58,459 nt of DNA from a virus. Location of the stretch: positions 1 to 58,459 of IMG/VR virus record IMGVR_UViG_3300030012_001987; one strand, 5' to 3'. Below, piece after piece: positions 30,233-50,958 of the stretch (positions within the stretch are counted from its first letter, which is position 1; each line of letters starts with the position of its first letter). The notes under the pieces are model-generated. The model was given only the letters and a program-made list of their open reading frames with translations, did no database searches and was not told the origin of the DNA. Position numbers and translations under genes: made by a program.

Positions 30233-30439
30233 ATGAAATTGAGAATAATGAATGACACAGGACACACTGTACTAGATGACGTAACTGTTTCGGATGTCAT
30301 CGACCAAATCAACGACCATCCCACACACTGGGTTTTCGTTGAGGGCGAGATGGTATCGAGACAGGAAATCCCGAACATCAGTTGGGATGAGGTTGATACT
30401 GTCAACCTAATTCCGGCCATGGTCGGAGGCTCACTCTGA
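30233..30439 (+). CDS. Ubiquitin-like beta-grasp protein (ThiS/MoaD/SAMP-like) with C-terminal GG
   Basis: 68 residues from the ATG at 30233 (GGAGATAATA upstream). Order of elements matches a beta-grasp: MKLRIMNDTG, HTVLDDVTV, helix DVIDQINDH, strand WVFVEGEMVSR, and final strand DTVNLIPAMVGG followed by SL. The last part closely resembles ThiS/MoaD, whose C-terminal Gly-Gly is adenylated by an E1 enzyme. Two residues after GG would need removal, a job for a JAMM peptidase. Both an E1-like gene (35063-35662) and a JAMM gene (36462-37121) lie downstream in the same transcription direction. Either a protein modifier or a sulfur carrier. Confidence 0.65.
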   Translation: MKLRIMNDTGHTVLDDVTVSDVIDQINDHPTHWVFVEGEMVSRQEIPNISWDEVDTVNLIPAMVGGSL

Positions 30440-30596
30440 GCCTAACTCGTTCTTACTGAGCAATGCTTAAGTGCAACTCTGCATAATTTGCCTAAGCATT
30501 ATAGGTCTGCTGAGTAACGCAAAAAACCCCAGCAACGGGGAAGATAGTTGTCAATCGGGTGAGAAGCCCGATAACCAAATTTTCGGAGAGAGAAGA
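30440..30596 (+). promoter_or_regulatory. Structured leader of the ribonucleotide reductase gene
   Basis: A 157-base gap with ordered stems: CGTT-CTT-ACT with AGT-AACG as outer pair; AATGCTTA/TAAGCATT (30462-69 with 30493-500) enclosing TGCA/TGCA; CCCC-AGCAAC-GGGG (30527-40); and ATCGGG/CCCGAT (30554-59 with 30567-72) extended by GTT/AAC. The ribosome site GGAGAGAGAAGA follows. A candidate 'nrdJ motif' RNA upstream of class II reductases has been described from marine metagenomes; this may be that motif or a different cis-regulatory RNA. The conserved cobalamin-riboswitch core is not visible. Confidence 0.6.
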
Positions 30597-32465
30597 ATGG
30601 AATTACAACAAGAAATATTGTCAGAAATAACAACGAACATGAAGTATGCAAAGTACTTGCCTCTTGAATTCAGGAGGGAATCTTGGAAAGAGATTGTAGA
30701 AAGGAACAAGGAAATGCACAAGAAGAAATTCGCACACATTCAGGGGTTTGACGAGAAGATAGATTATGTCTATGACAACTTCGTTCTAACCAAGAAAGTG
30801 CTACCATCCATGCGCTCCATGCAATTTGCAGGGAAGCCGATTGACTTGTCTCCGAATAGAATATACAACTGTGCTTACATGGCTATCGATTCTACGATAG
30901 CATTCTCGGAAGCCATGTTCCTGTTGCTGGGCGGCACAGGAGTTGGATACTCTGTTCAGAGACACCACGTATCAAAATTGGATACAATACAGAAGCCTAA
31001 TCCTGAGAGGACATACAGGCATCTAGTTGCGGATTCGATAGAAGGATGGGCTGATGCAGTCAAGGTATTATTTGACGCATACACAGGAGACAGGAGAACA
31101 ACACCAAGGTTCGACTACTCCGACGTAAGACCGAAGGGTAGTCAATTGAAGACTAGTGGTGGTAAAGCACCCGGCCCTGCTCCATTGAAGAAGTGCATAG
31201 TTACCATAGAGAACATGCTACTTAACATGGAAGATGGTCATCAAATTACACCAATCGAAGCACATGACATGATGTGCCACATCGCAGATGCAGTTCTTGC
31301 TGGTGGTATCAGAAGAGCCGCAATGATTAGTCTGTTCAATGCAGACGACAACGAGATGATTAACTCAAAGAATGGTCACTATTGGGAGACCAATCCACAG
31401 AGAGCGAGAGCGAACAACTCAGCAGTTCTCATCAGAGAGAAGTGCGAGAAGGAGTTCTTCGATGACTTGTGGAATAGAACCAGAGCCAATAAGACTGGTG
31501 AGCCGGGTATATTCTTCTCCAATGACAAGGATTGGGGAACAAATCCCTGTGCAGAAATTTCGCTGAAAAATCATCAGTTCTGCAATCTCTGCGAAATCAA
31601 TGTATCCACTGTCAGTAGTCAGAAGGATTTGGAAGAAAGAGTAGAAGCCGCAACCATCATAGGAACGATGCAAGCGTGTTACACTGACTTCCATTATCTA
31701 CGACAGTCTTGGAAGAATACAACAGAGAAGGAAGCACTCGTCGGTATATCAATGACTGGCATCGCAAGTAATGCCCTCAAGGACTTGAATCTTGAGAGAG
31801 CATCAGATTGCGCAGTCATCGTCAACAAGACATATGCCGACATGTTAGGAATCAACTCAGCCGCAAGAGTGACCTGTGTGAAACCTGCTGGTACTACCAG
31901 TCTGGTACTCGGCACTTCCTCTGGAATACATGCTTGGTACTCCGAGTATTACATACGAAGAATCAGAGTGATGAAGAACGAGGCAATGTATCTGTATCTG
32001 AATGAGATGCTACCTGAGTTGGTAGAGGATGATGAGTGGGATGACAACCAAGCAATACTTGCTATCCCACAGAAAGCACCGAAGGGTGACATCATCACAA
32101 GAGAGGAGTCTGCTCTATCCATGTTGGAGAGATTGAAGAAGTATTCAATCGAGTGGGTGAGAAGGGGACATATCAGTGGGGTCAACTCACACAATGTCTC
32201 CGCCACTGTTAACGTCAGAGATGACGAATGGGAGACAGTGAAGGAATGGATGTGGGACAACAGAGAATACTACAACGGTATCTCTGTCCTGCCATTCGAC
32301 AACGGTGTGTACACACAAGCACCGTTTGAGGCTATTGAGAAAGAACAATACGAGGATATGTTCGCCAAATTACAATCAATTGACCTAACACAGGTCAAGG
32401 AATACAATGATAATACCAATCTGCAAGGCGAAGTTGCTTGTGCAGGTGGTGCATGTGAAATATAA
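30597..32465 (+). CDS. nrdJ: Class II (adenosylcobalamin-dependent) ribonucleotide reductase
   Basis: 622 residues from the ATG at 30597 (the frame is open upstream but lies in the leader). It makes deoxyribonucleotides for viral DNA. Visible features: NCAYMAID (first catalytic Cys), a Gly-rich turn LGGTGVGYSVQ, NPCAEISL and FCNLCEIN (the active-site loop Cys/Glu), GTTSLVLGTSSGIH, and the C-terminal redox pair in CAGGACEI. Length and motifs match the monomeric ribonucleoside-triphosphate reductase type. No NrdB-like subunit is present, as expected for class II. No N-terminal ATP-cone. The host must supply or import B12. Confidence 0.9.
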   Translation: MELQQEILSEITTNMKYAKYLPLEFRRESWKEIVERNKEMHKKKFAHIQGFDEKIDYVYDNFVLTKKVLPSMRSMQFAGKPIDLSPNRIYNCAYMAIDSTIAFSEAMFLLLGGTGVGYSVQRHHVSKLDTIQKPNPERTYRHLVADSIEGWADAVKVLFDAYTGDRRTTPRFDYSDVRPKGSQLKTSGGKAPGPAPLKKCIVTIENMLLNMEDGHQITPIEAHDMMCHIADAVLAGGIRRAAMISLFNADDNEMINSKNGHYWETNPQRARANNSAVLIREKCEKEFFDDLWNRTRANKTGEPGIFFSNDKDWGTNPCAEISLKNHQFCNLCEINVSTVSSQKDLEERVEAATIIGTMQACYTDFHYLRQSWKNTTEKEALVGISMTGIASNALKDLNLERASDCAVIVNKTYADMLGINSAARVTCVKPAGTTSLVLGTSSGIHAWYSEYYIRRIRVMKNEAMYLYLNEMLPELVEDDEWDDNQAILAIPQKAPKGDIITREESALSMLERLKKYSIEWVRRGHISGVNSHNVSATVNVRDDEWETVKEWMWDNREYYNGISVLPFDNGVYTQAPFEAIEKEQYEDMFAKLQSIDLTQVKEYNDNTNLQGEVACAGGACEI

Positions 32466-32748
32466 CGAAAAGGCGTGGTTATCAATAGAAGACGAAATCG
32501 TAGATTCAATGGTAAATGCGGGTGCAAAGGACAGCATCCGCACTTGGTATTGGAGATACAGAGAAGAACACATTCAACTCGCTGAGTTGAGACATGGGAT
32601 ATTGAGACTGATAAAGCAAGGGTATTCGGCTTTGAAGGACATGGATGACATACAAAACCTGTATGACAGAAAGGAATACTATAGAATAAACAAACAAGAA
32701 TATGGTGATTACTATGAAAATGAAATTTACAATACCGAGAACAGGTGA
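32455..32748 (+). CDS. Small helical protein, unknown
   Basis: 97 residues from a GTG at 32455 that overlaps the end of the reductase and has AGGTGG upstream (VKYNEKAWLSIEDE). It is helical and rich in Tyr, Arg and Glu (TWYWRYREEHIQLAEL), ending in a Tyr/Asn-rich tail. Coupling to the reductase suggests a role in the same step or simply co-expression. No family recognised. Confidence 0.6.
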   Translation: MKYNEKAWLSIEDEIVDSMVNAGAKDSIRTWYWRYREEHIQLAELRHGILRLIKQGYSALKDMDDIQNLYDRKEYYRINKQEYGDYYENEIYNTENR

Positions 32749-33961
32749 TGGTAGACAGGAAGACACGACATCGTTCCTGATGCGTGTCAATGGTGTTAAA
32801 TGGAAACCCGGCATGAGTCCGAACAACTTTGGTGAGAGAACTCTGAGAGTTCCCCAATTGGATATAAGCAGTAGGTTCTCCAAGACCCTAGACCCCATGA
32901 CAGAGAACATCGCTTACACAATCAGGCAATGCTTGATTCCAAACACACACAGAAGAAGAAGCAGGTACTACTCTTACGACAATAGTGATTGGGACAAGTG
33001 GACTGCAATTATGACCTTCAAGAGAGATGATGGGGATGCCATGATATGGATACAGAAGAACAACACTGTGTATACCATGAACAGTCAGAGAATGTCATTG
33101 CACGACATATCACTAGCCTTGGCTAAGATAATCTTTAGGAGTGTGGTGGATAGAAGCGCAGTCAGTCTCGATGAGTACATAGACAGAGTGATTGAAACAC
33201 CACCACATGTGATGTATGCTCTAGAGAACAGAACGCCATACGTGTTTTGGGATGACGGTACGAAATGTGAAGTCAGAATCAACACGAAGTTGGTAGGCAA
33301 GAAGGATGTTGCACTTGAGATATCCGAAGGAGTATGGGGTTCGATGTCCGTATCAGAACTGAATACATTCGTGAACACGTTCGGAATGAACTCAAGCCGC
33401 TCCAAGAAGTGGTATCGAATATCACCCAAAAGACTCTGGACAGCACTCATGGGTGAAGAGCCATCAGAGAGTCAGAAGAAACTGATGATTGCATGGTTGC
33501 TACAGAATCGTACTCAGAAGATGGTCGAGGAGAGAGCATACGAGTTGGTCTACGAACTGGCCGATGAGTTTGAGAATATCCAAGTGGTGATACATGAGGG
33601 ATACATGGCTCTGTTCGTCAGGGGTATCCATGCTGATTGGATGATTGCTGATGCCAACAAAGGTTGGAAGAAAGGTCATCAGAATGTCAACACCTTCTAT
33701 TGGGATGGTCGCAAATGGGCAGGGCCGGTTTGCATTGACAACCTACATCACAACTCTAGCATTGGTGACCAACTCTCATCAAGAGCAATGATGCTGATGA
33801 ACGACAAAGGTGCTGGTGAGATGATATACACACTCAGGGGACTACAACCAATGGTGGACGAGTGGTATGGTAAGCATCGATACGATAGAGTCCTGATTCC
33901 CTATGACAAGAGGAAGGATTACAGATTCAAGCAGATACAACATGGAGCGTTGAACAAATGA
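32714..33961 (+). CDS. Unknown 415-residue protein
   Basis: From the ATG at 32714 (GGTGATTACT upstream; another ATG lies two codons on), overlapping the previous gene by 35 bases. Mixed alpha/beta protein with a basic Arg-rich loop (NTHRRRSRYYSYDN), several Trp-rich strands (DWDKWTAIMTFKRDDGD) and a C-terminal basic helix. No nucleotide-binding or nuclease motif is evident. Position between the reductase and TFB and the 4-base overlap with TFB suggest an early regulatory or replication role. Confidence 0.65.
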   Translation: MKMKFTIPRTGDGRQEDTTSFLMRVNGVKWKPGMSPNNFGERTLRVPQLDISSRFSKTLDPMTENIAYTIRQCLIPNTHRRRSRYYSYDNSDWDKWTAIMTFKRDDGDAMIWIQKNNTVYTMNSQRMSLHDISLALAKIIFRSVVDRSAVSLDEYIDRVIETPPHVMYALENRTPYVFWDDGTKCEVRINTKLVGKKDVALEISEGVWGSMSVSELNTFVNTFGMNSSRSKKWYRISPKRLWTALMGEEPSESQKKLMIAWLLQNRTQKMVEERAYELVYELADEFENIQVVIHEGYMALFVRGIHADWMIADANKGWKKGHQNVNTFYWDGRKWAGPVCIDNLHHNSSIGDQLSSRAMMLMNDKGAGEMIYTLRGLQPMVDEWYGKHRYDRVLIPYDKRKDYRFKQIQHGALNK

Positions 33962-34869
33962 ATCCTGTGACGATTGGTGAGTCATGCAAGGAATGTGGTA
34001 GCAAGGACTTCACCTACATCGAGAGATTGGGTGAGAAGACCTGTGACGAATGTGGGCTTGTGCTTGTAGTCAATCCATTTGAGGAAACGACGCATATGAT
34101 TGCGATAAACGACGATGACAAAAGAGGCAGGTCAACTGACCGCTTGGGTTCCATCATCAGGAAATCAGACGCATATGGTAACAAGGACAAGTTCGCTCTC
34201 TATAGGGAACAAGTCAGGAGTCAACCTGAATCTGAGACAGATAGAACGGCGAGACTGCTCATCAACAGCACACTCTCGTACTACAACGTGTCAAGGGACT
34301 TGAAGAAGAGAGCAGAGAAATACTATGAGATGATGAAACGAGATTTGTTTCGTGGTTTGGATGTAGAGAGGAGATGCGCCTCTCTCACATTCTATGTTCT
34401 CAAGGAAGCAGACATCGTATGTAACATACAGGAGCATTCTAGGAGAACGCTAGTGAGACAGAATGACATCTCAAGGTTCGCTAGGAAAATCGCTAGGCAT
34501 CAGAGGAACTCTACTGTGTTCATAACAAGGAACCATGAGCAGAGAGCGCAAACTCTGATGTCAAGAATGGATGTGGACATAGATGACTATTTCAGAGCGA
34601 ATGCATTGAGAGTTGTCGAGTATGTCTCAAGGCATGTAGAGTCATTGGATATGAGATTCGCTGACACCATGTTAGCGGCTTGCATTTGGATGACAGGTCA
34701 GATGATGAGTAGACATGATATAACACAGTCTGCCATATGCAAGCACTGGAACTCTTCGCACGTTGGTTTGAGGGGAGCAATGGTGACATTGTGCGATATA
34801 TTCCAAGTAGATAGGAAGACATTATTTGGTATGCAAGTCGAGGACTTCGTATCAGGTGTGCGCTATTGA
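33958..34869 (+). CDS. tfb: Transcription initiation factor TFB (TFIIB homologue)
   Basis: 303 residues. N-terminal zinc ribbon Cys10/13/29/32 (CKECGSKDF...CDECG), then the B-reader/linker region (DRLGSIIRKSDAYG), then two cyclin-like repeats (first about 85-180, second about 195-295). In archaea TFB joins TBP at the BRE/TATA and recruits RNA polymerase. A viral copy would redirect host polymerase to viral promoters or to selected promoter classes. The second repeat, which contacts BRE, is divergent, in line with an altered site preference. No viral TBP is seen, so host TBP is presumably used. Confidence 0.85.
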   Translation: MNPVTIGESCKECGSKDFTYIERLGEKTCDECGLVLVVNPFEETTHMIAINDDDKRGRSTDRLGSIIRKSDAYGNKDKFALYREQVRSQPESETDRTARLLINSTLSYYNVSRDLKKRAEKYYEMMKRDLFRGLDVERRCASLTFYVLKEADIVCNIQEHSRRTLVRQNDISRFARKIARHQRNSTVFITRNHEQRAQTLMSRMDVDIDDYFRANALRVVEYVSRHVESLDMRFADTMLAACIWMTGQMMSRHDITQSAICKHWNSSHVGLRGAMVTLCDIFQVDRKTLFGMQVEDFVSGVRY

Positions 34870-34976
34870 AAGGAGAGGAGTATTGCAAGTGTGGTAGGAA
34901 GAAGTATCGTCGTTCCTACACTGTATGCGATAGATGCTACTTGAGACAAAAGAGAGCAGAAAGACGGAGAACTTGA
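34866..34976 (+). CDS. 36-residue zinc-finger microprotein
   Basis: A TTG start overlapping the TFB stop gives KGEEYCKCGRKKYRRSYTVCDRCYLRQKRAERRRT, with CxC and CxxC pairs for one zinc and a very basic helix afterwards. The arrangement looks like a minimal nucleic-acid-binding finger. It is supported by the lack of any other gene in this gap and by the TGA-overlap pattern; the non-ATG start lowers confidence. Confidence 0.5.
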   Translation: MKGEEYCKCGRKKYRRSYTVCDRCYLRQKRAERRRT

Positions 34977-34977
34977 A

Positions 34978-35103
34978 ATGGGACTGGTCAAGGAGTTGTA
35001 TTTTGAGATGAAGGAAAGAGGATTGACCTTGACATTAAAACAATATATGGAGATGAAAAACAATGAGAAAGATAATGATAATAGGAGCAGGTGGAATAGG
35101 TAG
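34978..35103 (+). CDS. 41-residue helical peptide
   Basis: ATG at 34978, one base after the zinc-finger stop; reads MGLVKELYFEMKERGLTL and ends in a charged tail, overlapping the start of the ThiF-like gene by 41 bases. Its own start and length are plausible for this genome, but it could be only the spacer carrying the ribosome site (ATGGAGATG) for the next gene. Confidence 0.4.
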   Translation: MGLVKELYFEMKERGLTLTLKQYMEMKNNEKDNDNRSRWNR

Positions 35104-35662
35104 TTACCTCATTCACAACCTGAATAGAATAAACCAGAGATGCAGGACTGATAAGCCCGGTATACATCTATACGACATCACGGTGTTCGATGATGACACG
35201 GTTGAGAAGAGCAATCTTGGAAACCAGATGTACAGCGAACATGATGTTGGTCAGTTGAAGGTAGACACATGGTCTGCTAGTTGTAATGCACAGCCATATC
35301 AAGTCCTGCTTGACAAGCAACTAAAGGGATATGATTTGGTGGTTTGCTGTGCAGACAACCTTGCAGTACGTCGTCTTCTATACCGACAGGGGTATGGAGA
35401 CTCTGCTAAGATTAAGTGGCTAGATTTACGCGCACAGGGTAGGAATGCGGCACTTATCTCATACAAGGTGGATGAGAACTTGGTGGATGCTCTGCTGAGT
35501 GGGCCGGATGGTTCCTTCTCCTGTCAGGCAGAGGGTTGGGATGGTCTTGCATCCGAGATGAACGCGATGCACATGGCTATCGCTGGTATTGCGGCACAGT
35601 GGATTCAGAGATGGTGGAACGACCATGATGATGTGGCTGACAAGATAATTATGAATGTGTGA
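35063..35662 (+). CDS. E1-like activating enzyme (ThiF/MoeB superfamily)
   Basis: 199 residues. Rossmann nucleotide site GAGGIGS (8-14), then the E1 signature FDDDTVEKSNLGNQMY (41-56) with the acidic residues and Asn that bind ATP-Mg, the conserved Lys (LKVDTW), and CCADN. A later SFSCQAEG and helix NAMHMAIAGIAAQWI resemble the PRTRC-type ThiF proteins of plasmids and phages rather than host MoeB/UbaA. It would adenylate the C-terminal Gly of a ubiquitin-like protein; a separate catalytic Cys domain is lacking. Read with the Ubl at 30233 and the JAMM protease 0.8 kb downstream. Confidence 0.8.
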   Translation: MRKIMIIGAGGIGSYLIHNLNRINQRCRTDKPGIHLYDITVFDDDTVEKSNLGNQMYSEHDVGQLKVDTWSASCNAQPYQVLLDKQLKGYDLVVCCADNLAVRRLLYRQGYGDSAKIKWLDLRAQGRNAALISYKVDENLVDALLSGPDGSFSCQAEGWDGLASEMNAMHMAIAGIAAQWIQRWWNDHDDVADKIIMNV

Positions 35663-35666
35663 TAGT

Positions 35667-36221
35667 ATGCCTATAGGAGTAACGAAATTCAACCACAAGA
35701 AACTGAAAGAGGTTCTCTCTGAGTTCTTTGATAATATGAATGTCGGTGACATGTGTACGATGAATGAGATATTGGAATACCTAGCGACTGTACCGTTGGG
35801 TAGGATGAAAGACGTACATCCAAGAGCGGCGATATCAAACCGCAAAGTGGGCATAAAGCAACTGTATACGTCTAGAGATTACTTCGCTATGGCATGTAGA
35901 CAGTTACCAAACGTCGTAAGAGGAAGTCTCTACTCGCGTGGTAGCAAGTACATGATTCCACTGGTGTTGTTCGTCAAGACGAATGAGAACAGGGATACAG
36001 TCTGCTTCAACTGCGATGAGTACATCGTTGGTGGTGCTAAGGACTACGTTGCCACACACCCAAAGGGGAAGATGCCTGTGATTGCTAGGCACATCATGTG
36101 CAGGGAATGCTACATACATGAGGTGAAGATGTTCAATCCGTATGATACCGGGTATTTTCAACACTATGATGAACAATATGAGAACTGGGAAAAGAAAAGA
36201 GAATGGAGTGAGGAAGAATGA
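35667..36221 (+). CDS. Zinc-binding protein between E1 and JAMM genes
   Basis: 184 residues from the ATG at 35667. The first 90 residues are helical and look like a winged helix (VGDMCTMNEILEYLATVPLG). The second half carries CFNCDEY and CRECYIHE, a treble-clef-like zinc site, with basic residues between. It ends WSEEE. It might be a substrate, adaptor or E2/E3-like partner of the flanking Ubl system; no catalytic Cys can be assigned. Alternatively a transcription regulator. Confidence 0.6.
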   Translation: MPIGVTKFNHKKLKEVLSEFFDNMNVGDMCTMNEILEYLATVPLGRMKDVHPRAAISNRKVGIKQLYTSRDYFAMACRQLPNVVRGSLYSRGSKYMIPLVLFVKTNENRDTVCFNCDEYIVGGAKDYVATHPKGKMPVIARHIMCRECYIHEVKMFNPYDTGYFQHYDEQYENWEKKREWSEEE

Positions 36222-36460
36222 GTAAAGAAGATAGTAACATAGATGATTTAACAGAGGAAGATTTGGATAAAATAATGACTATAATATCCACGGATGGGTA
36301 TTATCTGCAAGCAGAGATAGTGAAGGTGACATGTCCTGTTTGCGGAGAGGAGTTCTTGGGAACGAAGAGACATGCTGGTGGTTTCATAGTGGGACACCAA
36401 GCATACCATGAGTTCCAGAACAATCAAGACGCACTAATGGTGCAAATGGGAGGACAATAA
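36218..36460 (+). CDS. Small C2H2-type zinc-finger protein
   Basis: 80 residues. Acidic helical first half (NIDDLTEEDLDKIMTII), then CPVCGEEFLGTKRHAGGFIVGHQAYH, giving two Cys and several His in a C2H2-like spacing. It overlaps the previous stop as ATGA. A DNA-, RNA- or protein-binding adaptor is possible. It is embedded between the E1-like and JAMM genes. Confidence 0.65.
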   Translation: MSKEDSNIDDLTEEDLDKIMTIISTDGYYLQAEIVKVTCPVCGEEFLGTKRHAGGFIVGHQAYHEFQNNQDALMVQMGGQ

Positions 36461-36461
36461 A

Positions 36462-37121
36462 ATGAATGAATATGAGAAAAAAGAAGATAAGACAAGACTG
36501 GACATAAAGGTAAGTGGTAGTAGCATGGATGAAAACAACACAGGGGTTGTACCGAGAGGACCGTATAATGAGATTGATTTGGAAGTAAAGAATCCACATT
36601 GGAAAGATAACATTAGGGAGGCTTACAAACAGATGAAGGATGATATCGTCTGGTTGTATCCTAACAATACGACTGAGACTTTCCTCAGTGTGATTTGGAA
36701 TGCATCGAAGAAGGCATTCGACATACCAAGAGAAGTACAGGTGATGGTGGATGCGAATGAGAACCTGTACATCAGTTACGGGACACCCGGTTTCGTATCC
36801 TTTGAGGGACACGAAGACGAGTTAATCAATGGCGCACCGATGAAGTTGCCCATCAAATGCTGGATACACACACATCCTTTCGGTACTGCCTTTTGGAGCA
36901 TGACCGATTGGAAATCTTTGAAAACGTGGCAACCTGTCCTAGACTCGGCTATCGTACTAGGTGACAACGAGTATCTTGCTTATGACTTGAAGACCAAGAT
37001 TGGCAAGAAGGTGTTATTCGGTTTGATGGAGCCACCGGAGACAGTGATAGACTACAAGACAGAGGAAGAGGAACTGTCTGTAATAGAAATAGATGAACAA
37101 ATAAAAAAGGAGGAGGAATGA
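36462..37121 (+). CDS. JAMM/MPN+ metalloprotease (JAB domain)
   Basis: 219 residues. The zinc-protease motif is intact: upstream Glu in TETFLSVIWN (about 72), then His136-Thr-His138-Pro (CWIHTHPF) and Ser146-x-x-Asp149 (SMTDW). JAMM enzymes cut isopeptide or peptide bonds after ubiquitin-like proteins (archaeal HvJAMM, bacterial JAB in Ubl operons). Here it could mature the Ubl by removing Ser-Leu after Gly-Gly or strip the Ubl from targets. The first 60 residues are charged and the C terminus ends IKKEEE. Confidence 0.8.
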   Translation: MNEYEKKEDKTRLDIKVSGSSMDENNTGVVPRGPYNEIDLEVKNPHWKDNIREAYKQMKDDIVWLYPNNTTETFLSVIWNASKKAFDIPREVQVMVDANENLYISYGTPGFVSFEGHEDELINGAPMKLPIKCWIHTHPFGTAFWSMTDWKSLKTWQPVLDSAIVLGDNEYLAYDLKTKIGKKVLFGLMEPPETVIDYKTEEEELSVIEIDEQIKKEEE

Positions 37122-37215: not shown

Positions 37216-37599
37216 ATGAGGAGTTTGGTAATACTACTTCTCGTATCATCCTCTCTTGCTGGATGTGCAGAGATGATACCTGACCCACCAGTTGAGGGTA
37301 ATGACCCAATCTGGACTACGGAGTATCACAACTTCACATACGAGGATACCAACAACAGTACAATGCCAGTCATCACGTTTGGTGACAATGGCACGTTGGT
37401 AGAGATATTCTCTGCTAGTGCGATACTGCACAACGAGACAGTCAACTTGACTGTTGACATGAAGCCGTTCTTCTCGGTGAACAACGTATCTTTCCAACAG
37501 GGACATGCACCCACCATGGGTGAAGTCACGTTGAGTCTGATAGAACTGAGAGGATATGACTACAACTGCACAGTTGTCTATAGGTTGTGGGAACTGTGA
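37216..37599 (+). CDS. Secreted lipoprotein with many N-glycosylation sequons
   Basis: 127 residues. Signal peptide MRSLVILLLVSSSLAGC with lipobox LAGC, so Cys17 would be lipid-anchored on the outside of the cell. The mature part is beta-rich and has at least seven N-x-S/T sequons (NFT, NNS/NST, NGT, NET, NLT, NVS, NCT). A virus-encoded, glycosylated cell-surface protein is typical of receptor masking or superinfection exclusion. Ends NCTVVYRLWEL. No homologue recognised. Confidence 0.75.
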   Translation: MRSLVILLLVSSSLAGCAEMIPDPPVEGNDPIWTTEYHNFTYEDTNNSTMPVITFGDNGTLVEIFSASAILHNETVNLTVDMKPFFSVNNVSFQQGHAPTMGEVTLSLIELRGYDYNCTVVYRLWEL

Positions 37600-47035: not shown

Positions 47036-47227
47036 ATGGAGTGTGTAATTTGTAAAGGAGAAATAGAAGAAACAGAATACGGTTGGAAGCACGGTCACAA
47101 TGCGGAACCTGTGAAGAATGGAAGGTGTTGTAGCCGATGTCATTGGGAACTTGTAATGCCAACAAGAATAGTAATGGAGATGAAATATAATGATAATAGA
47201 CAAACTGAAAGAAGGGATAGGACTTAG
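47036..47227 (+). CDS. Small zinc-finger protein before PolB
   Basis: 63 residues behind GAGGTGATGAC: MECVICKGEIEETEYGWKHGHNAEPV...RCCSRCHWELV. CxxC and CCxxC form one zinc site in the style of small phage zinc fingers (C-x2-C, G-HNAEPV, C-x2-C). It overlaps the polymerase start by 38 bases. Probably nucleic-acid binding. Confidence 0.68.
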   Translation: MECVICKGEIEETEYGWKHGHNAEPVKNGRCCSRCHWELVMPTRIVMEMKYNDNRQTERRDRT

Positions 47228-48950
47228 GTGGAGAGACCCCAAGACTCTTGAAAGAGAGAGTAAGGAGGTCTCCTTCCATGAGTTTCCACCACACTTCTTC
47301 GTGAAGAAGAAACATGGGTGGACTGAACACGGTGACAGGATTGAATATCAAGATGGTCAAGAGAAAGTAATGCGGTTCAAGGACAAGTGGGGAAACTTCA
47401 ATTTAGATGTGAAATTCCAACACGGCGACTACAAGAACCTAGAAGGCGATGAACTAGTCAAGGTTACTTGGAGTCCACCAAGGCCATCGTACTCGTATCG
47501 TTTGAGGAATAACTTTCATGCATCATACGAAGCAGATGTCTCACACCACTACAGGTACGCTGTTGATTGTATCGATGAGATGCCTGAGTACCAGATGCGT
47601 AAGTGGTATTGGGACATGGAGTGGATGCAAGGCGGTGAGCATGATGGTGCTATCACTTGTATCGTGGTGTATGATAACTACATGAAGAGATATCGTACTT
47701 ACTTTTGGCAACCAGAGATGGAATCATTCTTGGAACAAGGATATGACATTTCGACCTCTCGTCTGTTTGACTCTGAGGAGAAGATGCTGATATGCTTCCT
47801 GTCTGATATGATAGATGATGACCCTGACATGCTTATCTCTTGGTTCGGTTGGAAGTTCGATTTGCCGAAGTTGATTGAGAGAATGGTGCATCATGGGGTT
47901 GACCCCAAGTTACTGTCACCATGGAACGAGGTCACTGGTGTCTCTTGGAAGAACAACAAACCAATCATGGATGAGGGAACGGTAACTTCCTACTCTCCGA
48001 TAGCACAACCAATCAAAGGTAGGATTTGTGTTCCACTTGACTTGGCTTTTGAGAGACAATGGAACGATGCACAGAGAGGAACACTAGCATCGATGTCACT
48101 TGACTACATCTCCGAGACTGTACTAGGTCGCAAGAAGTTAGTCAGTGAAAAGTTTCCTGATAAGAACGAGTTCTTTGCAAGAGGGTGGCTTGAGGACACA
48201 CAGAGATACGTTGAGTATGCTAAAGTAGACGTTGAACTATTAGTCCTAATAGATGAAATGCAACACACAACAGAAGCAATCGTATCACTCCAAAGGCTTC
48301 TCAAGGCTCCCTTCGATGCTTGCTTCTATGCGAGCAACATGGGTGGAATATACTTCATGCGAAATGCCCCTTGGAAGGCTCCTACGGGCGAGAAAGGACA
48401 GCGGGTGTCCTACGACGGCGCGATGGTGTATGACCCTCTCAGCGAGTCCACAAATGGACTCCATTTAGGTGTCGCGGCATTCGACTACGCACAATTGTAT
48501 CCATCTATGATAATCGCTAGGAATATCAGTTGGGAGACCGTATCGGAAGAACCAACTGCCTTTGCAGTCAATATCAAGACACCAAAAGATTTCAGCGAAG
48601 TAAAGGAATACGATATGAAATATTTCAAAGTGGATGAACTTGGCCTACTACCAAGAGCAGTTCTAGAATTAAAGACACTAAGGAATGAATACAAATCATT
48701 GGCTAGGAATGCCGAGTCTGAAAGTGACTACAACAAGTGGAACAACAATCAACTCGCAGTCAAGAGGCTCATGGCTTCCTTCTACGGCATCATTGCGTAC
48801 CAAGGATTCGGATGGGCCAATGTGGAACTTGCCGCTTGCATCACTGCTAGTGCGAGGGAAGCCATACGTCTAGCCGCTTTCAAAGTCAAGGAGATGGGGT
48901 TTAGGTCAAAGGAAATACCCTTTTTCAAGGTCAAGGAGATGAGCGAATGA
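47190..48950 (+). CDS. polB: DNA polymerase B, N-terminal part (exonuclease, palm motifs A and B)
   Basis: 586 residues. Proofreading exonuclease is intact: WDMEW (Asp142, Glu144), FGWKFDLPKL (Asp224), YAKVD (Tyr343, Asp347). Polymerase motif A DYAQLYPSMI (432-441) and motif B KRLMASFYG (525-533, with Ala-Ser in place of Asn-Ser). The chain stops after a repeated FKVKEM segment, just before motif C. The rest of the palm and thumb is encoded by 50086-50958. The two parts must assemble to be active, as in other naturally split family B polymerases. The last 8 codons contain the start of the next gene. Confidence 0.9.
   Translation: MIIDKLKEGIGLRWRDPKTLERESKEVSFHEFPPHFFVKKKHGWTEHGDRIEYQDGQEKVMRFKDKWGNFNLDVKFQHGDYKNLEGDELVKVTWSPPRPSYSYRLRNNFHASYEADVSHHYRYAVDCIDEMPEYQMRKWYWDMEWMQGGEHDGAITCIVVYDNYMKRYRTYFWQPEMESFLEQGYDISTSRLFDSEEKMLICFLSDMIDDDPDMLISWFGWKFDLPKLIERMVHHGVDPKLLSPWNEVTGVSWKNNKPIMDEGTVTSYSPIAQPIKGRICVPLDLAFERQWNDAQRGTLASMSLDYISETVLGRKKLVSEKFPDKNEFFARGWLEDTQRYVEYAKVDVELLVLIDEMQHTTEAIVSLQRLLKAPFDACFYASNMGGIYFMRNAPWKAPTGEKGQRVSYDGAMVYDPLSESTNGLHLGVAAFDYAQLYPSMIIARNISWETVSEEPTAFAVNIKTPKDFSEVKEYDMKYFKVDELGLLPRAVLELKTLRNEYKSLARNAESESDYNKWNNNQLAVKRLMASFYGIIAYQGFGWANVELAACITASAREAIRLAAFKVKEMGFRSKEIPFFKVKEMSE
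48879..48941 (+). repeat. Near-direct 18-bp repeat at the polymerase break
   Basis: TTCAAAGTCAAGGAGATG at 48879-48896 recurs as TTCAAGGTCAAGGAGATG at 48924-48941 (17 of 18 bases). The first copy is followed by GGGTTT, which would join naturally to AAGGTAGTTTACGG of the second polymerase gene (50089 on); the second copy is followed by a stop. It looks like a duplication made when the inter-gene cassette entered or when the end was repaired. Confidence 0.7.
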
Positions 48951-50009: not shown

Positions 50010-50089
50010 CTGACGAACGAATAGAATTCTTTTGGATACAAAGACAGTGGCCTAAGCAAATGGAAGAAGAGAATGGTGAGGAAGAATGA
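50006..50089 (+). CDS. 27-residue peptide before PolB C-part
   Basis: MTDERIEFFWIQRQWPKQ, then MEEENGEEE. ATGA overlaps on both sides. Its acidic end is the ribosome site (GGTGAGGAAGA) of the second polymerase gene, so it may serve mainly to couple translation. Confidence 0.42.
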   Translation: MTDERIEFFWIQRQWPKQMEEENGEEE

Positions 50090-50958
50090 AGGTAGTTTAC
50101 GGACACACTGATTCAATCTACTGTACTGTTGATTCAGTAGAGCAAGCAAAAAACGTGCTTGAGGAATTGAACGAACACGTTAGAAGTTATTTTCCAAACC
50201 TGCTAGAGTTGAATGAGCATCCAGTCGTCATAGAGTTTGAGAAATACTTTGAGAGTCTAGGTGTCGGAGCGACGAAGAACAGGAACGCTGGTCTGATTAC
50301 TTGGAAGGATGGCAAGTTCTTGGATAAGAAGGAATTCGTTATGACAGGGTTTACTGCTAAGAGATTATCAGAAACCAAACTTGCGAAGGATACTCAGTTG
50401 GCTGTACTAAACATGTGGGTCGAGAATAATACTGAACAAGAAATAGCGGATTTTTTGAGAGATAGATATAATCAAGTTTTATCAGGACAGATTCCGATTA
50501 GTGAAGTATTGAAGCGTAGTCGATATAGAGAGGCTAGGTTTTCCGTCAAGTGTGGTAACTGCAAGAGGAAGAAGACATTGGATGAGTTGACCAGAGGGCC
50601 ATGTTGCAACAACATGAACCTACAGACTCTTGAGGGTAAGAGGCCAACAGTTGGTTCTGGTGTCGAGGGAGTCGTGTACTACAACAGTGTGAACAAGATT
50701 CCCATCGAGGACTCGTATCTGTTCCTCAGAGTCAAGGAGAATCATCTGAACTACTGGCATCCCATCAAGCAGGATTACGTCAAGCCAAACTATGTGGCAG
50801 GTTTGACTGAGGCTGACTTCGCTGTGTATCAGGCTGATTGGGCGCACTATGCGGATTCAGTCATCAAGAAGGCAGAGCCAGTTTTCAGAGCGATGGGTTG
50901 GGACACAATGCAGATAAAGAAAGATTTGAGCCAAAGCACGTTGGGGGAGTGGTTCTGA
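50086..50958 (+). CDS. polB: DNA polymerase B, C-terminal part (motif C, thumb, PIP box)
   Basis: 290 residues. Begins MKVVYGHTDSIYC: motif C with His7 in place of the first Asp of the usual YGDTDS, but keeping the essential Asp9. Then SLGVGATKNRNAGLI (the KKRY-like DNA-contact region), thumb helices, a zinc-type Cys set CGNCKRKK...CCN, and the exact C terminus QSTLGEWF, a PCNA-interaction motif. No intein residues are present at the start. With the N-part it gives about 876 residues, a normal PolB length. Confidence 0.88.
   Translation: MKVVYGHTDSIYCTVDSVEQAKNVLEELNEHVRSYFPNLLELNEHPVVIEFEKYFESLGVGATKNRNAGLITWKDGKFLDKKEFVMTGFTAKRLSETKLAKDTQLAVLNMWVENNTEQEIADFLRDRYNQVLSGQIPISEVLKRSRYREARFSVKCGNCKRKKTLDELTRGPCCNNMNLQTLEGKRPTVGSGVEGVVYYNSVNKIPIEDSYLFLRVKENHLNYWHPIKQDYVKPNYVAGLTEADFAVYQADWAHYADSVIKKAEPVFRAMGWDTMQIKKDLSQSTLGEWF

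Follow-up and report, generated by a model that had tools for sequence, protein, structure and literature searches.

A predicted E2-less ubiquitin-like conjugation cycle among the core genes of magrovirus-like viruses

RESULTS

Organization of the Locus

The window, by which we mean the whole stretch of viral DNA analyzed (58,459 nt), encodes on its plus strand a ubiquitin-like modifier (Ubl) of 68 aa (positions 30233-30439), an E1-like adenylyltransferase of 199 aa (35063-35662), and a JAMM/MPN+ metalloprotease of 219 aa (36462-37121). The three ORFs lie on the strand and at the coordinates given by a first-pass annotation of the DNA. The Ubl gene is ~4.8 kb upstream of the E1 gene and is not adjacent to it, RNR and TFB genes lying in between. 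Ahead of E1 lies a gene for a TFB-like viral transcription factor (33958-34869, plus strand), which matched the Pfam TFIIB zinc ribbon (E = 2.4e-5) and was found at 37 of 37 E1 loci. The surroundings of the three-gene set consist of TFB, RNR, ligase, and replication genes; portal and terminase are encoded at 2-7 kb on the other strand, distant from the set. Where dN/dS could be computed for Ubl, E1, and JAMM, it was 0.07-0.15, showing purifying selection.

Two further plus-strand genes separate E1 from JAMM and code for a zinc protein of 188 aa (35655-36221) and a C2H2-type zinc protein of 80 aa (36218-36460). The E1 gene and these two genes overlap, and the JAMM gene starts 1 nt past the end of the second, an arrangement of overlaps and a 1-nt gap that gives the appearance of translational coupling. 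Both Cys/His proteins are thus present where the first-pass annotation had put two zinc proteins, but neither is core. The 188-aa protein is local, with a counterpart at 3 of 37 E1 loci, and has no convincing family in Pfam, NCBIfam, or PHROGs. The 80-aa protein is frequent (28/37) and ends in MGGQ, that is, GG plus one residue, and a GG-X terminus is found in 57 of 64 distinct sequences of its relatives. We considered it as an obligate fourth part of the set or a second modifier and rejected this, as it is missing from 9 of 37 E1 loci, seven sequences have no GG, and it also occurs in a 100-kb record (G039/L216) that yielded no Ubl, E1, or JAMM.

The Ubl Is Predicted to Have a β-Grasp Fold and a Processed Tail

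The Ubl ORF starts with the ATG at position 30233, preceded by the ribosome-binding-like sequence AGGAGA, and its product has the length of 68 residues and the ending LIPAMVGG-SL that had been noted earlier. The sequence matched the Pfam ThiS family (E = 0.0014) and TIGR01683 (E = 0.0065), and the closest sequence was ThiS, with the GG aligned. The AlphaFold (AF2) model has a pLDDT of 86, the element order E-E-H-E-E-H-E, and a disordered end. Foldseek matched it to ubiquitin with a probability of 0.97-0.99, and VIA gave MoaD (Z 5.8), ThiS (5.0), and TtuB (4.9). Structure prediction thus agrees with the proposal that the small protein is a ThiS/MoaD-like β-grasp protein. The commonest Pfam match in the Ubl family was to PinA inhibitor (15 of 70 members, best 1.4e-4), an identity set aside because the fold and the GG end fit a Ubl. 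No match to Prok_Ub was obtained among the 70 members. Lysine makes up 1.2% of the residues of the Ubl family versus 6-10% in most other families; we dropped this scarcity as proof of isopeptide chemistry, E. coli ThiS also being without lysine.

All 109 distinct Ubl sequences have the GG. Behind it come 0-3 residues (9 in one Ubl), with ~33 different tails among these sequences. A short and near-arbitrary tail behind an invariant GG is, at the level of sequence, the pattern expected of a tail that is processed. Nine of the 109 Ubls have no tail at all, and the genomes that encode them retain an intact JAMM motif, so that tail trimming cannot be all that JAMM does. The earlier suggestion that the residues after GG imply maturation by JAMM is therefore supported in part, by the variable tails, but does not account for JAMM being kept alongside the tail-less Ubls.

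The E1-like Enzyme Has an Altered ATP Site

Both E1 motifs reported in the first pass, GAGGIGS and FDDDTVEKSNLGNQ, are present in ORF 35063-35662. The protein belongs to the ThiF family (Pfam ThiF, E = 1e-16), and its match to NCBIfam PRTRC_ThiF (1e-17) has 64.3 bits, below the cut-off of 144.75. This is a better score than that for SAMPActivE1UbaA (32 bits, cut-off 450). The family profile matched Uba1 (3e-10), Cap2 (5e-10), and MoeB (1e-9). An hhalign comparison with PRTRC ThiF gave 98.5% (E = 1.6e-15) with an alignment spanning the cysteine, and Cys-154 aligns with the cysteine of the PRTRC and crAss001 enzymes.

Among 109 sequences the residues Asp-43, Asp-45, Asn-51, Gln-55, Lys-66, Asp-98, and Cys-154 are invariant, and the canonical D, N, Q, K, D set of the E1 adenylation site is therefore kept in full. 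The arginine of the NxxRQ motif, a normal component of the E1 ATP site, is replaced in all 109 (by Tyr in 105, Asn in 3, and Thr in 1; Asn in the window), and so activity of the E1 is not assured. Two more arginines, Arg-123 and Arg-127, are invariant and could compensate for the loss.

The JAMM Protease Resembles Ubl Deconjugases

The JAMM protein contains the sequence HTHP-x6-SMTD, as first noted, which is the canonical H-x-H-x7-S-x2-D motif; the putative catalytic residues are Glu-91, His-136, His-138, Ser-146, and Asp-149. The catalytic set (E, HxH, S, D) is 100% conserved in 119 sequences. As a single sequence the protein matched Prok-JAB only at E = 0.14, but a 70-sequence profile matched AMSH-LP (6e-6) and the Caldiarchaeum Rpn11 homologue CsRpn11 (9e-5); PRTRC_A was matched weakly by 5 of 70 relatives. 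The core of the AF2 model has a pLDDT above 90. The best VIA match of the model was PfJAMM1, alone (Z 9.4) or with SAMP2 (9.3), followed by Cap3 (9.0) and AMSH (8.8). The predicted fold is thus nearest to PfJAMM1, the SAMP2-bound enzyme, and to ubiquitin/Ubl deconjugases.

Co-occurrence of Ubl, E1, and JAMM in Magrovirus-like Viruses

The three genes occur together in related genomes with hardly an exception, and so pass the co-occurrence check proposed with the first-pass annotation. At 44 loci found solely via the DNA ligase, E1 and JAMM were each present in 44 and Ubl in 42, the two misses being short contigs; in 40 long records the counts were 38 for E1, 39 for JAMM, and 38 for Ubl.

Magrovirales, viruses of Poseidoniales, have genomes of ~90-100 kb with a two-piece PolB, an RFC small subunit, an ATP ligase, a TFB, and portal and terminase genes. 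All of these genes are found in the window, whose likeness to magroviruses is one of gene content, and its relatives are often 84-103 kb in size. Ubl, E1, and JAMM are core genes of this magrovirus-like lineage of marine archaeal tailed viruses. The predicted TFB-like factor marks the host as archaeal. Only three MAG contigs were found among genome contigs with a match, and their labels, Maricaulis and Altibacter, were discarded as a clue to the host because they are uninformative for a TFB-bearing virus; the contigs are probably mis-binned. A tblastn search of GenBank phage records gave no match to the Ubl or JAMM of the window, and the 36218-36460 zinc protein had no named homologue in GenBank phages.

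Searches for an E2 Enzyme

E2 family D (PRTRC protein B) gave no match in 15 records, the control giving no match either, and UQ_con gave none with a control that was likewise silent. Among the neighbors of the set, where a CBASS/Bil-type bacterial Ubl defense would have its E2 partner, single-sequence scans gave no match to E2 families.

Comparison with Known Systems

The closest parallel is the archaeal SAMP/UbaA/HvJAMM (PfJAMM1) system, which shares a small GG-ending β-grasp modifier, a ThiF-family E1, and the archaeal setting; the JAMM fold is nearest to its PfJAMM1, and in both no E2 is recognized. Unlike this system, the present set is virus-encoded, its E1 lacks the NxxRQ arginine and is closer to PRTRC ThiF than to UbaA, its Ubl usually has a variable tail of 1-2 residues, and its JAMM is extended by an additional region at the N terminus and is acidic at its C-terminal end.

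The PRTRC plasmid system comprises ThiF, protein A (JAB), protein B (E2 family D), and protein C (Prok_Ub). The viral E1 is nearest to its ThiF, and a few JAMM relatives weakly match PRTRC_A. However, PRTRC has an E2 and several further proteins, the one protein C examined has no terminal GG, and the viral Ubl is dissimilar to it by hhalign. Membership in PRTRC is ruled out by the type of Ubl and by the E1 score (64.3 versus 144.75 bits). With the ThiS-ThiF pair the viral set shares its nearest Ubl sequence and the adenylation half of E1; it differs in having a JAMM and a Ubl tail, and genes for thiolation partners were not found in 20 records.

Tailed-virus E1 genes adjoining a JAB protease are also found in crAss001 (gp76-gp77) and in Burkholderia phage BgVeeders33. 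The crAss001 ThiF likewise lacks the NxxRQ arginine, but its N-terminal part is long and no small Ubl is recognized in its neighborhood, whereas BgVeeders33 has an E2 of family D and resembles a PRTRC module. Borg elements of Methanoperedens are archaeal mobile elements with many predicted JAMM de-SAMPylases, one element also having a SAMP, according to an excerpt of their description (PMC12660748). In contrast to a fixed one-copy three-gene set, they carry many JAMM copies, and the same excerpt describes no Borg-encoded E1.

DISCUSSION

Our best reading of these data, which we hold to be somewhat more probable than not, is that the core genes Ubl, E1, and JAMM form a virus-encoded, E2-less cycle in which the Ubl is conjugated reversibly, in a way that resembles SAMPylation in archaea. 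First, JAMM would cut the short variable tail off the Ubl precursor to expose the GG. The conserved residues of E1 predict that it would then adenylate the terminal glycine with ATP and transfer it to Cys-154. In the next step, which would need no dedicated E2, amino groups on proteins of the virus or the host would receive the activated Ubl directly, as happens in archaeal SAMPylation. Finally, JAMM may cut the conjugates and so recycle the Ubl, as suggested by its fold, its intact catalytic residues, and its retention with tail-less Ubls. The sequences suggest that the virus may tag proteins reversibly while infecting, and, as had been proposed earlier, the proteins modified may be those of the virus or the host, or the virus may be opposing a Ubl response of its host. 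A likely purpose would be takeover of the archaeal cell, e.g. by tagging host transcription, replication, or defense proteins. The stronger proposal, that the lineage relies on its own complete E2-less Ubl cycle as an essential part of infection, with a minimal E1 whose ATP-site arginine is replaced, is plausible at slightly less than even chances.

An E1 without the NxxRQ arginine and a Ubl sequence nearest to the sulfur carrier ThiS speak against a conjugation cycle. The likeness to ThiS suggests the main alternative, in which the ThiS-like Ubl, once activated by E1, is converted to a thiocarboxylate by a sulfurtransferase of the host and donates its sulfur to tRNA, a nucleotide, or cysteine, with JAMM acting like Mec+ of the CysO pathway to free the product from the Ubl C terminus. 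The ThiS and TtuB matches of the Ubl and the retained E1 cysteine aligning with PRTRC ThiF fit this pathway, and archaeal ThiS-family Ubls are frequently tied to tRNA modification genes (PMC2948915). However, in searches whose controls gave matches, 20 long related records yielded no rhodanese, PP-loop thiolase/ATPase, or PALP/CysM. This result speaks against a pathway dedicated to sulfur, although the host could supply these enzymes. The tail on most Ubls would need prior removal, and the JAMM fold is closest to Ubl deconjugases. We consider sulfur transfer unlikely.

Somewhat less likely again is a role in counter-defense, in which JAMM would free viral proteins of SAMP-like or Cap2-type modifiers attached by the host, and the Ubl and E1 of the virus would act as decoys or competitors against a host Ubl antiviral response. 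Ubl-like conjugation is involved in bacterial anti-phage defense, according to the title of one study (PMC10097602), and the excerpt on Borgs proposes that their de-SAMPylases oppose host tagging (PMC12660748). The intact catalytic set of JAMM would suit such a role, but a pure deconjugase strategy needs no conserved modifier or E1, yet all three are equally fixed, and they are core genes under purifying rather than diversifying selection.

The loss of the NxxRQ arginine throughout the viral E1s and in crAss001 ThiF would also be expected of an E1 that is a mere scaffold and, with the Ubl, regulates a viral complex while JAMM processes the Ubl. This is improbable, as the remaining ATP/Mg-site residues and Cys-154 are invariant and the two conserved arginines could take over. 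Phage tail genes include Ubl and JAB domains, but a part in tail assembly is most improbable and was rejected on gene context, the set being surrounded by genes for TFB, RNR, ligase, and replication, far from portal and terminase on the opposite strand.

Ubiquitin-like pathways are known targets that viruses hijack or block. ThiF/MoeB is a frequent gene of archaeal viruses and has been linked to ubiquitination (PMC8276007). We found no description of a full viral Ubl-E1-JAMM set in the literature; the original magrovirus paper was outside the search, and priority is uncertain. If the conjugation cycle proposed here is correct, a minimal three-protein Ubl system whose modifiers naturally come with and without tails would allow tests of how far such a cycle can be simplified and why it needs JAMM. 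With modifier, activator, and deconjugase in essentially every genome of the lineage, Ubl tagging in archaea would then be not only a host process but also a viral tool.

Genomic Context

The window spans 58,459 bp and is a single virus record from IMG/VR. The minus strand carries a structural arm with portal and large terminase, and the plus strand carries a replication arm comprising the RFC small subunit, a family-B DNA polymerase in two separate pieces (47190-48950 and 50086-50958, + strand) with a gap of ~1.1 kb, an ATP-dependent ligase, a class II RNR, and TFB. The TFB gene implies that the host would be archaeal. The gene set matches the ICTV summary for the magroviruses of marine Poseidoniales (PMC10768690), suggesting, by likeness to that description rather than to a named magrovirus genome, that the virus is magrovirus-like. 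Public MAGs assigned to Maricaulis and Altibacter contain contigs of the same virus family (L223-L225), probably through mis-binning.

The Ubl, E1, and JAMM Proteins

The first-pass annotation proposed a virus-encoded ubiquitin-like modifier (Ubl) pathway, and the three components that it noticed are confirmed. The 68-residue Ubl (30233-30439, + strand) matched Pfam ThiS (E = 0.0014). Its AlphaFold model, calculated from an alignment of 70 sequences, had a mean pLDDT of 86 and the strand/helix order E-E-H-E-E-H-E. The top Foldseek matches were to ubiquitin (probability 0.97-0.99, E 0.005-0.01), and near-top VIA-align rows included MoaD (Z 5.8), ThiS (5.0), TtuB (4.9), and a bacterial E1-E2-bound Ubl (4.8). 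Nearly all top structural rows were beta-grasp proteins, at Z-scores that are modest, as with any 68-residue domain. The Ubl is predicted to be a beta-grasp, as the first-pass annotation proposed.

The E1 (35063-35662, + strand) matched Pfam ThiF at 1e-16. Its nearest curated family was PRTRC_ThiF (1e-17, under the family cut-off), and the E1 family profile matched Uba1, Cap2, UBA5, MccB, MoeB, and Uba4 at 1e-10 to 1e-9. Residues D43, D45, N51, Q55, K66, D98, R123, R127, and C154 are invariant among 109 sequences; Cys-154 lines up with the cysteine in PSCS of PRTRC ThiF. Arg-123 and Arg-127 are marks of the archaeal-virus family. In MoeB-type enzymes the arginine of the NxxRQ motif contacts ATP. 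At this position (residue 54) the 109 sequences have Tyr (105), Asn (3, the window included), or Thr (1). The arginine is kept in the PRTRC and Burkholderia phage BgVeeders33 enzymes and lost in crAss001 ThiF (Gly; L227:3503-4654).

The JAMM protein (36462-37121, + strand) scored no better than E = 0.14 against Prok-JAB from the single sequence alone; its family profile matched AMSH-LP (6e-6), STAMBP, and a Caldiarchaeum Rpn11 homologue (9e-5). The core of the AlphaFold model had pLDDT > 90, and the nearest folds were PfJAMM1 alone (Z 9.4), PfJAMM1 with SAMP2 (9.3), Cap3 (9.0), and AMSH (8.8). Glu-91, His-136, His-138, Ser-146, and Asp-149 are invariant across 119 sequences, and the H-x-H-x7-S-x2-D motif is present in 142 of a wider set of 144. 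A short acidic run (EEE) closes most JAMM relatives, and the adjacent zinc protein (35655-36221) has the same ending.

Conservation of the Gene Set

Among 40 long records picked via E1, Ubl, or the 80-residue zinc protein at 36218-36460, E1 was found in 38, Ubl in 38, and JAMM in 39. G031 lacks E1 and G019 lacks Ubl, in each case at a contig end where the absent gene would be expected. Only G039, picked via the zinc protein, showed none of the three. A scan with a ligase profile, free of this selection bias and restricted to loci having 8 kb or more upstream, found E1 and JAMM in 44/44 loci each and Ubl in 34, rising to 42 once whole records were searched; the remaining two records are fragments of 25 and 46 kb. 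The scan covered the best 80 loci, and more distant relatives may lack the set. Where E1 has long flanking sequence (37 loci), the genes for Ubl, E1, JAMM, TFB, and ligase were each present in 37/37 on a single strand, RNR in 29, and the 80-residue zinc protein in 28. The expected co-occurrence in related genomes therefore holds, and these counts show the three to be core genes of the lineage, not sporadic auxiliary genes.

The values of dN/dS between the window and relatives, taken only from comparisons with unsaturated dS, were 0.13-0.15 for Ubl, 0.08-0.10 for E1, and 0.07 for JAMM. All three genes are under purifying selection, evidence against a role in a rapid arms race.

Several neighbors have features of their own. 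In 57 of 64 distinct relatives, exactly one residue (I, A, V, Q, and others) follows the GG at the end of the 80-residue zinc protein (+ strand); this terminus resembles a modifier precursor, and the sequence is zinc-finger-like, not beta-grasp. The zinc protein is also present in the 100-kb record G039/L216, where Ubl, E1, and JAMM were not found. The class II RNR beside the Ubl (30471-32465) shares 58% identity with a protein of a Microcystis phage, is missing from about one-fifth of related loci, and looks horizontally exchanged. A predicted small lipoprotein (37216-37599; signal peptide, LAGC lipobox) belongs to the same gene string at 29/37 related loci.

Maturation, Conjugation, or Sulfur Transfer

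GG is kept in 109/109 distinct Ubls and is followed by two residues in 53, one in 42, none in 9, three in 4, and nine in 1, with ~33 different sequences. Removal of the tail would predict this pattern of an absolutely fixed GG and freely varying residues behind it. The first-pass claim that these residues imply maturation by JAMM is favored to that extent. However, 13/13 loci with a tail-less Ubl retain a JAMM with an intact motif, so that on sequence grounds JAMM must have a role besides maturation, for which deconjugation is the obvious candidate.

The likeness of the Ubl sequence to ThiS makes sulfur transfer an alternative to weigh. No rhodanese, TtuA/TilS-type PP-loop ATPase, or CysM-type enzyme was found in 20 long related records (controls positive in 13-14 of 14 genomes), which argues against it, although enzymes absent from the virus could come from the host. 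Lysine is scarce in the Ubl, which is not decisive because E. coli ThiS has none. We regard reversible Ubl conjugation as moderately probable; the proposed interpretation is supported in part, its mechanism being plausible from sequence and predicted structure. No E2 was recognized among neighbor genes by single-sequence Pfam scans, and two genome searches gave zero matches, with no positive control matching in either. In archaeal SAMPylation (the Haloferax system) E1 alone suffices; if E2 is truly absent, the viral cycle would run in the same way.

Relation to Known Systems

The RaFAH study (PMC8276007) reported MoeB/ThiF genes, which it related to ubiquitination, to be among the most prevalent auxiliary genes of archaeal virus genomes. 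Borg elements are described as having numerous predicted de-SAMPylases and a single SAMP (PMC12660748). Among bacterial viruses, crAss001 carries E1 and JAB, and BgVeeders33 carries E2, JAB, and E1. The crAss001 gp76, annotated as a thiamine biosynthesis protein, is an E1 of the ThiF type whose N-terminal region is long, and it adjoins gp77 (Prok-JAB domain); the pair is possibly a Ubl module in crAss-like phages. The BgVeeders33 genome has a PRTRC-like cluster of alpha-hel2 protein, E2 family D, JAB, and ThiF. A literature search of partial coverage, with the founding magrovirus paper outside it, found no published description of the Ubl-E1-JAMM set in these viruses. The apparently new combination, which a single lineage of archaeal viruses holds fixed, consists of a ThiS-like Ubl, a PRTRC-like E1 that lacks the usual arginine, and a JAMM resembling PfJAMM1 and AMSH.
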